Shown here in pieces: positions 42,803-45,129 of a stretch of 64,000 nt of DNA. Origin of the DNA: an uncultured Atopobiaceae bacterium (lineage in GTDB: Bacteria > Actinomycetota > Coriobacteriia > Coriobacteriales > Atopobiaceae); the NCBI GenBank assembly GCA_947625405.1, contig CANQOF010000002.1, positions 62,001-126,000 of the forward strand, given 5' to 3'. Under the pieces are notes generated by a model. That model saw nothing but the letters and a program-made list of their open reading frames with translations. It did no database searches and was not told the origin of the DNA. Each line of letters opens with the position of its first letter. The first letter of the stretch is position 1. Position numbers and translations under genes: made by a program.

Positions 42803-43387
42803 ATGGCCGACGAACTTCATGGCGCATCCCTCTCCATCGACCCGGAAACCACCGCCCTCCTCGTGATCGACGTCCTCGAAGGAGGGTTCCTCGATTCCGA
42901 TCAAACCGAGGAGAACCGCGCTTTCGGCGAGGCGTGCGCCGAGGTGGCGAGGCTTTGCCGCGAGGCGGGGCTTCCCGTGGTGATGTGCTGCGACGCCCAC
43001 ATCGAGGGGCTCGACCGCGAGCTCGACCTCTGGGGCCCGCACGGCATGGCGGGCGCGGAGGCCTCGAAGCCGGCGAAGCTCCTCGGCTCCTCCCCGCGCG
43101 ACTTCATCATCGAGAAGCGTCGCTATTCGGGCTTCTTCGAGACCGACCTCGACCTCACCCTGCGCGAGCTCGGCGTGAAGACGGTCATCGCCATCGGCTC
43201 CGACACGAACATCTGCGTGCTCCACACGCTTGCCGACGCGTACTTCCGCAACTACGCGTCGGTCGTGGTGAGGGAGGCGACGATGACCTTCCTCGTGGGC
43301 ACGCAGGAGGGCGCCTTCGAGCACATGGAGCGCTGCTTCGGCACGAAGCTCGTGAGCGTTGGGGATCTCCGCGCCGCCCTCGCGTAG
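42803..43387 (+). CDS. Isochorismatase-family cysteine hydrolase
   Basis: The 194-residue protein has the catalytic triad of the family: D23 in LLVIDVLEGG, K105 in IIEKRRYSGFFETDL, and C138 in SDTNICVL. Members include nicotinamidase, ureidoacrylate hydrolase and isochorismatase; the specificity here is unclear, though the KRRYSGFFET segment is nicotinamidase-like. GAAAGG precedes the ATG. A strong terminator follows. Confidence 0.88.
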   Translation: MADELHGASLSIDPETTALLVIDVLEGGFLDSDQTEENRAFGEACAEVARLCREAGLPVVMCCDAHIEGLDRELDLWGPHGMAGAEASKPAKLLGSSPRDFIIEKRRYSGFFETDLDLTLRELGVKTVIAIGSDTNICVLHTLADAYFRNYASVVVREATMTFLVGTQEGAFEHMERCFGTKLVSVGDLRAALA

Positions 43388-43404: not shown

Positions 43405-43438
43405 AAGAGGCGTCGCATCGAGGGATGCGACGCCTCTT
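43405..43438 (+). terminator. Strong terminator after the isochorismatase-family gene
   Basis: A perfect 15-bp stem (43405-43419 with 43424-43438) has a GAGG loop and a TTTA end; the opposite strand ends TTCTCG. It also separates the broken LYNP-repeat gene that ends at 43463. Confidence 0.9.
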
Positions 43439-43462: not shown

Positions 43463-44848
43463 TTACCAGCTGGAATCCCAAAGAACGCCTGTCCAGGCGA
43501 TCCCTTCGTACTTCCACCCAGCCTTCTCGTTGGCTCTCACCTCATTGAAATCTGTTGAGTAATGGTGCGTTCCCGAACCCGTCTTGTAGGGATTGAAAAG
43601 GCGAGTCACTGTTTCACTTTCACCAGTATCCACGAAGTGGTAGGGATCTTTGATCTCGTTGAAGGAATAGAACTTGATACCTTCCTTTTTCCACCCGGCC
43701 TTTGCGTTTGCCTCGTATTCCTCGAGATTGATCGTGTAATGGTGGTCGTCAGTGTAGGGGTTATAGAGGCGATAGACCGGATAGTCGCTCTTCACGGGGG
43801 CATACCACATCACACCCTCGTAATTCCACCCGTTTCCCTCCATGGTGCTGCGCTCATCCTGGCTTGCGGTGTAGAGGTGCTCGCCCGTGTACGGGTTGTA
43901 CATGCGGTACATCTCGTGCCCGGTTCTTATATCGATTTCGAATAGACTTCCATATGCGCTATGGCCGTGCTCAGGGTTTTCGACGGACTCAAAGCACATG
44001 TAGTGCGTTCCTGCTTCCAGAAGTCCGCAATCCAGTGAGTACCAGCTATAGGAATCGTAGCCAGGATCATAGTCGTTCGTCGAAGATTTCAGTTCCTTGC
44101 CTGAAGAATCTACCAGCGAAATCTTAATCTCTCCAATAGAATGGAATCCCCCAAACTTGACGTTCGTAGGCTCGTCCAAGGAGAACTTATAGAAAACCCT
44201 GCATACGCGCGATCTTCGTAGTCTTTCAAATAGCTGTTATCTAGGCTGCCCGCGACGATCTTTTCGAGATTAATCTCGGCCGCGTGCGCGATGTCACGAT
44301 TGATGGGCTCTACAACTTGGAAATTCGTACCATCGTACATCGTGTATGCATTAGCAGAAAGCCACACCGAACCTGCATAGGAACTCGGGGCGGTTTGCTT
44401 GACTCTGAACGAATAATCGCCTTTTGGGAGCACCAGCCGACATCTGTTGTAGGATCCGAGATACTTCGTCTTGTCTATGACGTTGTTAGACGAATCGAGT
44501 ACTTCTGCTTCAATGGTGGCATTGCCCGAAGAATCATATGACTTAGAAGCGCTCAAATCGAAACCCACTGAAGAATTCGTGTGTAGCCTGAACGGGTAGG
44601 TGACTTCTTTGGTGCCACGCCAGTCATAGTCTGACGAGCCGAATCTTGTGGTTGTTTCGCCCAATACCACCGGCTCCGCGGCGAGGGCTTGCGTGGGAAG
44701 GATCGTGAGCGCGCAGAAGAGCGCGACGAGGAGGGCGAGGAGCGAAGCGCGGGGCGCGCGATTCGTCCCGTGAGCGCGCGAAGCGCGAGATCCCCCTAGC
44801 TGCTCATCGCAAACAGTTCGGGGGGGGGGTGTAGGAACCTCTATTCAT
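43463..44848 (-). pseudogene. Secreted LYNP-repeat (DUF5648-like) surface protein, frameshifted
   Basis: One gene is split over three frames. Part 1 (ATG 44848) stops after 14 codons because of a run of ten G at 44820-44829; with nine it would read on into a signal peptide (LLALLVALFCALTILPTQALA, residues about 38-58). Part 2 (to about 44195) is a beta-rich domain ending SYLKDYEDRAYAG. One missing base near 44193-44199 then shifts into part 3 (FYKFSLDEP onward). Part 3 ends with three repeats of about 45 residues with LYNPYTG-H-YT and AGWK-EG words. GC is clearly lower than around it, suggesting transfer. It lies between a terminator and tRNA-Pro. Phase variation, decay or sequencing error are all possible. 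Confidence 0.75.
44820..44829. repeat. Homopolymer of ten G at the 5' end of the LYNP-repeat gene
   Basis: G10 on the plus strand (C10 in the coding strand) lies six codons after the putative ATG at 44848. Nine instead of ten would restore a frame that runs through the signal peptide into the mature protein. Confidence 0.85.

Positions 44849-45052: not shown

Positions 45053-45129
<77 letters not shown>

Follow-up and report, generated by a model that had tools for sequence, protein, structure and literature searches.

A candidate contingency tract, apparently degenerate, in a lineage-specific gene for a predicted secreted protein of an uncultured Atopobiaceae bacterium

Introduction

Homopolymer switches at the 5' ends of genes for secreted proteins are already known, and those of surface proteins occur in Bifidobacteriales of the gut and the vagina. 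In Bifidobacterium breve UCC2003 the sortase-pilus loci bbr_0113 and bbr_1889 carry G-tracts whose slippage has been measured by maximum-depth sequencing; these loci combine the G-tract with LPXTG pilin genes, a sortase operon and an intact downstream gene (PMC9187656). In Gardnerella, homopolymer tracts of at least 8 bases have been described, and one of them was shown to vary between 9 and 10 bases (PMC11287997). We found no report of phase variation in Atopobiaceae, Olsenella, Collinsella or Coriobacteriia in the open-access literature, of which our coverage was incomplete.

The gene analysed here has a run of ten C on its coding strand. It resembles the B. breve loci in that a secreted-protein gene has a long homopolymer close to its 5' end, that an upstream start-bearing ORF needs in-frame joining for expression, and that the sequenced state is off (PMC9187656). 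It differs from them in having C on the coding strand, in encoding a DUF5648 protein and in carrying a second frameshift, and it is known from sequence alone. The likeness to Gardnerella lies in having G/C tracts across the genome, most of them within ORFs or at most 300 bp upstream and often belonging to surface proteins (PMC11287997). Gardnerella, however, is of the order Bifidobacteriales and involves other gene families, and length variation was shown there, whereas the locus described here was read from an assembly.

The LYNP repeats of the gene correspond to DUF5648 (PF18885), a domain found in secreted proteins such as the receptor-binding ends of BSAP, GH70 enzymes and an endolysin (PMC12853789, PMC13379245). 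Glycan recognition has been proposed for the DUF5648 of BSAP toxins and GH70 enzymes (PMC12853789). The domain is shared with these proteins, whereas the N-terminal part of the protein studied here showed no recognisable toxin or enzyme domain.

Results and Discussion

Genomic context of the C10 gene

The window, the whole 64-kb stretch that was analysed (G000:C2:62001-126000), belongs to genome G000, which comprises 1.72 Mb in 33 contigs. The C10 gene lies on the minus strand, inserted between the 5' side of a tRNA-Pro(GGG) gene (45053-45129, plus strand) and an isochorismatase-like gene on the opposite strand (42803-43387, plus strand). Instead of an LPXTG pilin gene with a sortase operon, the locus has a gene that ends in DUF5648, followed by a terminator-like hairpin with a 14-bp stem (43405-43438; seen in the sequence, unscored by the scan) and then by the isochorismatase-like gene.

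In three congeners (G001, G003 and G005) the site is empty: within about 35-60 bp after the isochorismatase-like gene come tRNA-Pro and a DUF4064-like gene. No comparable gene was found directly at tRNA-Pro in G002. A comparison of the tract between orthologs yielded none among 60 related genomes. The inserted gene is about 1.6 kb long and has a GC3 of 0.57-0.63, against about 0.8-0.95 in most native genes of the window (a comparison made with L056 and L229 set aside). The C10 gene is a lineage-specific gain, and may have been acquired horizontally at the tRNA-Pro locus.

The tract and its reading frames

No G/C run in the 64-kb window exceeds 6 bases except the C10 tract (44820-44829, minus strand; G10 on the plus strand). 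Six codons separate it from an ATG (44846-44848, minus strand); no other nearby start codon leads into the signal-peptide frame, and this one does so only in the C9 phase. The first-pass annotation had described this ATG, the tract and a stop after 14 codons, and its coordinates proved exact: at C10 the frame is closed by a TGA at 44804-44806 (minus strand). It had also proposed that removal of one base opens 59 codons into a signal peptide, and re-reading of the frames bore this out. With C9, 59 codons are open from the ATG as far as 44671, and they take in the core and c-region of the signal peptide, LLALLVALFCALTILPTQALA (44680-44742, minus strand), an assignment made by eye and with a hydropathy scan. 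The predicted products are 245 aa long with C9, 14 aa with C10 and 17 aa with C11. With C10 or C11, no upstream ATG, GTG or TTG reads into the signal-peptide frame, nor does that frame contain any such codon between the tract and GTG 44670.

The locus thus carries a homopolymer of at least 8 bases early in a coding frame, and changes of a single base decide whether this frame soon stops or forms a long ORF, as in slipped-strand contingency loci. If translation initiates at ATG 44848, the tract would fill codons 7-10 of the one frame that has a start. In the assembled C10 state translation would end after 14 codons and export would be off, whereas the loss of one C or the gain of two would allow export of the N-terminal part. 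The ribosome-binding context of the ATG appears weak, with GGTG 7 nt upstream, and the coding (minus) strand of the gene yielded no sigma-70-like promoter.

A second frameshift separates DUF5648 from the signal peptide

The LYNP region (43463-44179) does not share the frame of the mature N-terminal region (44193-44670, minus strand). The junction is spanned by an alignment with an intact paralog from the same genome, G000:C9:64067 (L065), which places the frame change at GGGTTTTC (44192-44199, minus strand). Programmed ribosomal frameshifting at this site was considered and rejected, the sequence GGG TTT TCT containing no slippery heptamer in the zero frame.

The N-terminal region is weakly similar to the paralog; it matched no Pfam family above the cut-off, and no relatives were found among 60 related genomes. 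Downstream of the junction, in the other frame, DUF5648 with its LYNP/YRLYNP repeats spans 43487-43915 (minus strand; PF18885, E=4.1e-38) with a profile score of 131.1 bits, compared to a curated cut-off of 25. No PDB relative of the DUF5648 half was found. The domain is expanded in the 1.7-Mb genome G000, where 47 matching stretches represent about 35-40 loci, many of them with open frames of 600-4000 aa.

Since the second frameshift at 44199-44192 splits the two halves in every phase, no tract length yields a whole LYNP protein, and DUF5648 is left out whichever frame the tract selects. The product of the C9 phase would be a fragment of about 190 residues that lacks the LYNP domain and is predicted to be exported. 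The first-pass annotation had held that the switch controls a LYNP-repeat protein; this had to be given up, as the second frameshift parts DUF5648 from the half that carries the signal peptide. This frameshift lies outside the tract and has already cut the domain off, so that the full protein is beyond the reach of switching.

Long G/C tracts in genome G000

Pattern searches of G000 returned 22, 2, 5 and 4 G/C runs of exactly 7, 8, 9 and 10 bases, respectively, and none that were longer. The nine runs of at least 9 compare with 0.4-2.4 expected (P 5e-10 to 9e-4), an expectation extrapolated from the G7 count with the range of decay ratios that the window shows (0.13-0.28). Taken alone, the window holds 3 G8 matches against 3.6 expected, which is not significant.

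The long tracts are also biased in position. In a strict count, derived manually from the automatic list, six of the nine are found within about 450 nt of, or inside, the 5' part of a large same-strand gene for a secreted protein, as are 2 of the 22 G7 controls (P=0.003). The automatic version gave 7/9 against 6/22 (P=0.014). The C10 tract of the window is not among the six or seven, because the second frameshift shortens its ORF. Among the products of genes adjoining the tracts are an LPKTG-anchored protein of 1653 aa, two proteins longer than 1000 aa that carry DUF5648, and one that contains a GBS104-like tip-pilin domain. Furthermore, tracts precede two further DUF5648 genes in G000 and two in the congener G004. 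At the level of the genome, the tracts of G000 thus show both the excess and the bias towards secreted and surface genes that are looked for in contingency loci.

Tracts in congeners and other Atopobiaceae

Pairs of orthologs hold the tract at the matching place, with lengths equal or one base apart, in a search that covered long tracts only and is thereby biased towards kept tracts. Examples of a difference of one base between species are L060 (G10) and L116 (G9), and L062 (G9) and L131 (G10). Most tracts in the genus are of one type, with G on the coding strand, a conserved TC[AG]CTC-like 3' flank and a start 13-20 codons upstream in a leader ORF. The window tract departs from this type in having C on the coding strand, the flank GAACTG and a start 6 codons upstream. 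The TC[AG]CTC flank gave 12 matches in 140 Atopobiaceae genomes against 0 for the reversed control pattern, a result that concerns only part of the loci and excludes the window tract.

The 3' flank recurs after runs of G9-G12 in unrelated genes (L063 5550, L123 4277, L132 652, L115 4269, L135 5324 and L119 2496). One of these, at 2496-2504 of L119 (G004:C119), is an in-frame G9 with a TCACTC flank inside a BREX brxC gene (PADLOC BrxC, 1065 bits), which is a candidate phase-variable defence gene. In L122 (4365-4373, G001:C6) an in-frame G9 forms the GGG of the FAGGGS motif of an HmaB/DUF1156 adenine methylase. Runs of G9-G10 are kept in four genomes of the genus (L062 5103, L118 1134, L129 2180 and L131 2144) upstream of a conserved gene (MKYEIIGNPYPAVVCH...) on whose coding strand they read as C.

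Tracts of ten G are present in 101 of the 140 Atopobiaceae genomes. In other genera of the family, G or C tracts occur 4-9 codons past the ATG of signal-peptide genes, several of them out of frame. Four loci selected by the flank motif have a G tract 5-8 codons past a good Shine-Dalgarno sequence and ATG, before the signal peptide; three of them, L185 (G9), L186 (G10) and L188 (G10), are out of frame, and the fourth, L187 (G9), is in frame. A sample of G10 loci drawn independently of the flank motif contributed two more that are out of frame: L211 (G10) and L202, a lipoprotein gene whose C12 tract gives a PPP in the n-region of the signal peptide. L202 is the closest match to the design of the window C10.

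Several giant secreted genes (L113, L124, L057, L128, L060, L063 and L134) are preceded by a short leader ORF that holds the G tract and has its own start 13-20 codons upstream. In several loci of the genus, the leader ORF stops at the giant gene's start codon in one phase of the tract. Such an ending, however, arises about as often in dinucleotide shuffles (Fisher P=0.16; P=0.26 with one locus per family), and coupling between the leader ORF and the giant gene is therefore not claimed.

Contingency tract or decayed gene

Our preferred explanation, which we hold with about even confidence, is that the C10 run is a slippage-prone contingency tract, half-broken or degenerate, within a gained secreted-protein gene, and one of a lineage-wide set. 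The proposal of the first-pass annotation that the locus is phase-variable retains its support from where the tract lies and how it sets the frame, from the surplus of G9-G10 runs that the genome shows at the 5' ends of genes for secreted proteins, and from the recurrence of the layout in other Atopobiaceae genera, while control over the LYNP protein falls away. Against the preferred explanation stand the C on the coding strand and the missing TC[AG]CTC-like flank, unlike most tracts of the genus, and also the weak ribosome-binding context of ATG 44848 and the negative search for a sigma-70-like promoter. Moreover, the second frameshift argues for decay. Because no tract length restores a complete gene, membership of the C10 locus in the slipped-strand class is unproven, and the locus is best regarded as a putative member.

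The main rival is plain pseudogene decay, which we consider possible though rather unlikely. A foreign gene at the tRNA-Pro locus would have lost its frame twice and its start as well, and C10 would be one of the lesions, devoid of regulatory meaning. Two independent frameshifts and a signal-peptide frame with no canonical start fit this account, as do the absence of the gene from congeners and its low GC3; in addition, an ACG at 44766 occupies the classic position of a signal-peptide start, as would follow from the loss of a start codon. However, the lesion would then coincide with the longest G/C run of the window, part of a genome-wide excess at exactly such positions. Low GC3 (0.62) is also found in an intact tract-bearing DUF5648 giant (L060 10037-13162), and there are no further lesions in about 1.2 kb.

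That one or both indels are errors of assembly or consensus, the gene being intact in the organism, seems improbable. Both indels lie within or beside homopolymers, and a mixed population could yield an arbitrary consensus tract length. Nevertheless, the second indel is at a mere T4, and the same assembly contains open frames of 3500-4200 aa (up to 4167 aa). Nearly all DUF5648 matches in G000 are free of stops, and the native genes of the window look intact, with ORFs covering about 94% of it.

Least probable by our estimate is that the tract is a non-coding 5' leader, at most tuning expression, with translation from a downstream non-canonical codon such as ACG 44766: the peptide from 44766 is a textbook signal peptide and many loci of the genus have the tract upstream of a gene with its own start and ribosome-binding site, but the signal-peptide frame has no ATG, GTG or TTG before 44670 and 44766 is not preceded by a good Shine-Dalgarno sequence.

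Returning to the contingency tract, the window holds a copy that seems at least half dead. If DUF5648 binds glycans, an undamaged copy would encode a switchable, secreted glycan-binding protein.

Implications for the Atopobiaceae

A broader reading, which we put forward tentatively and consider doubtful as a whole, is that Atopobiaceae possess a lineage-wide phase-variable repertoire of surface and defence genes. Besides BrxC and HmaB genes, the tracts would affect giant secreted proteins, lying within the first codons of their genes or in a short leader ORF; in the genus of the window the tract length would decide whether the leader ORF ends at the giant start, by translational coupling or polarity. 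The statistics support the repertoire part only, the coupling part having failed the shuffle test.

The Atopobiaceae tract set would be a further instance of the homopolymer switches known from secreted genes elsewhere, and is at present an unproven, candidate set of switches. The single locus in the window matters less, because it is apparently half dead. If the tract set is active, a second, largely uncultured lineage of gut actinobacteria would diversify its secreted proteins within clonal populations, and consensus sequences of metagenome-assembled genomes would miscall many such genes as broken.
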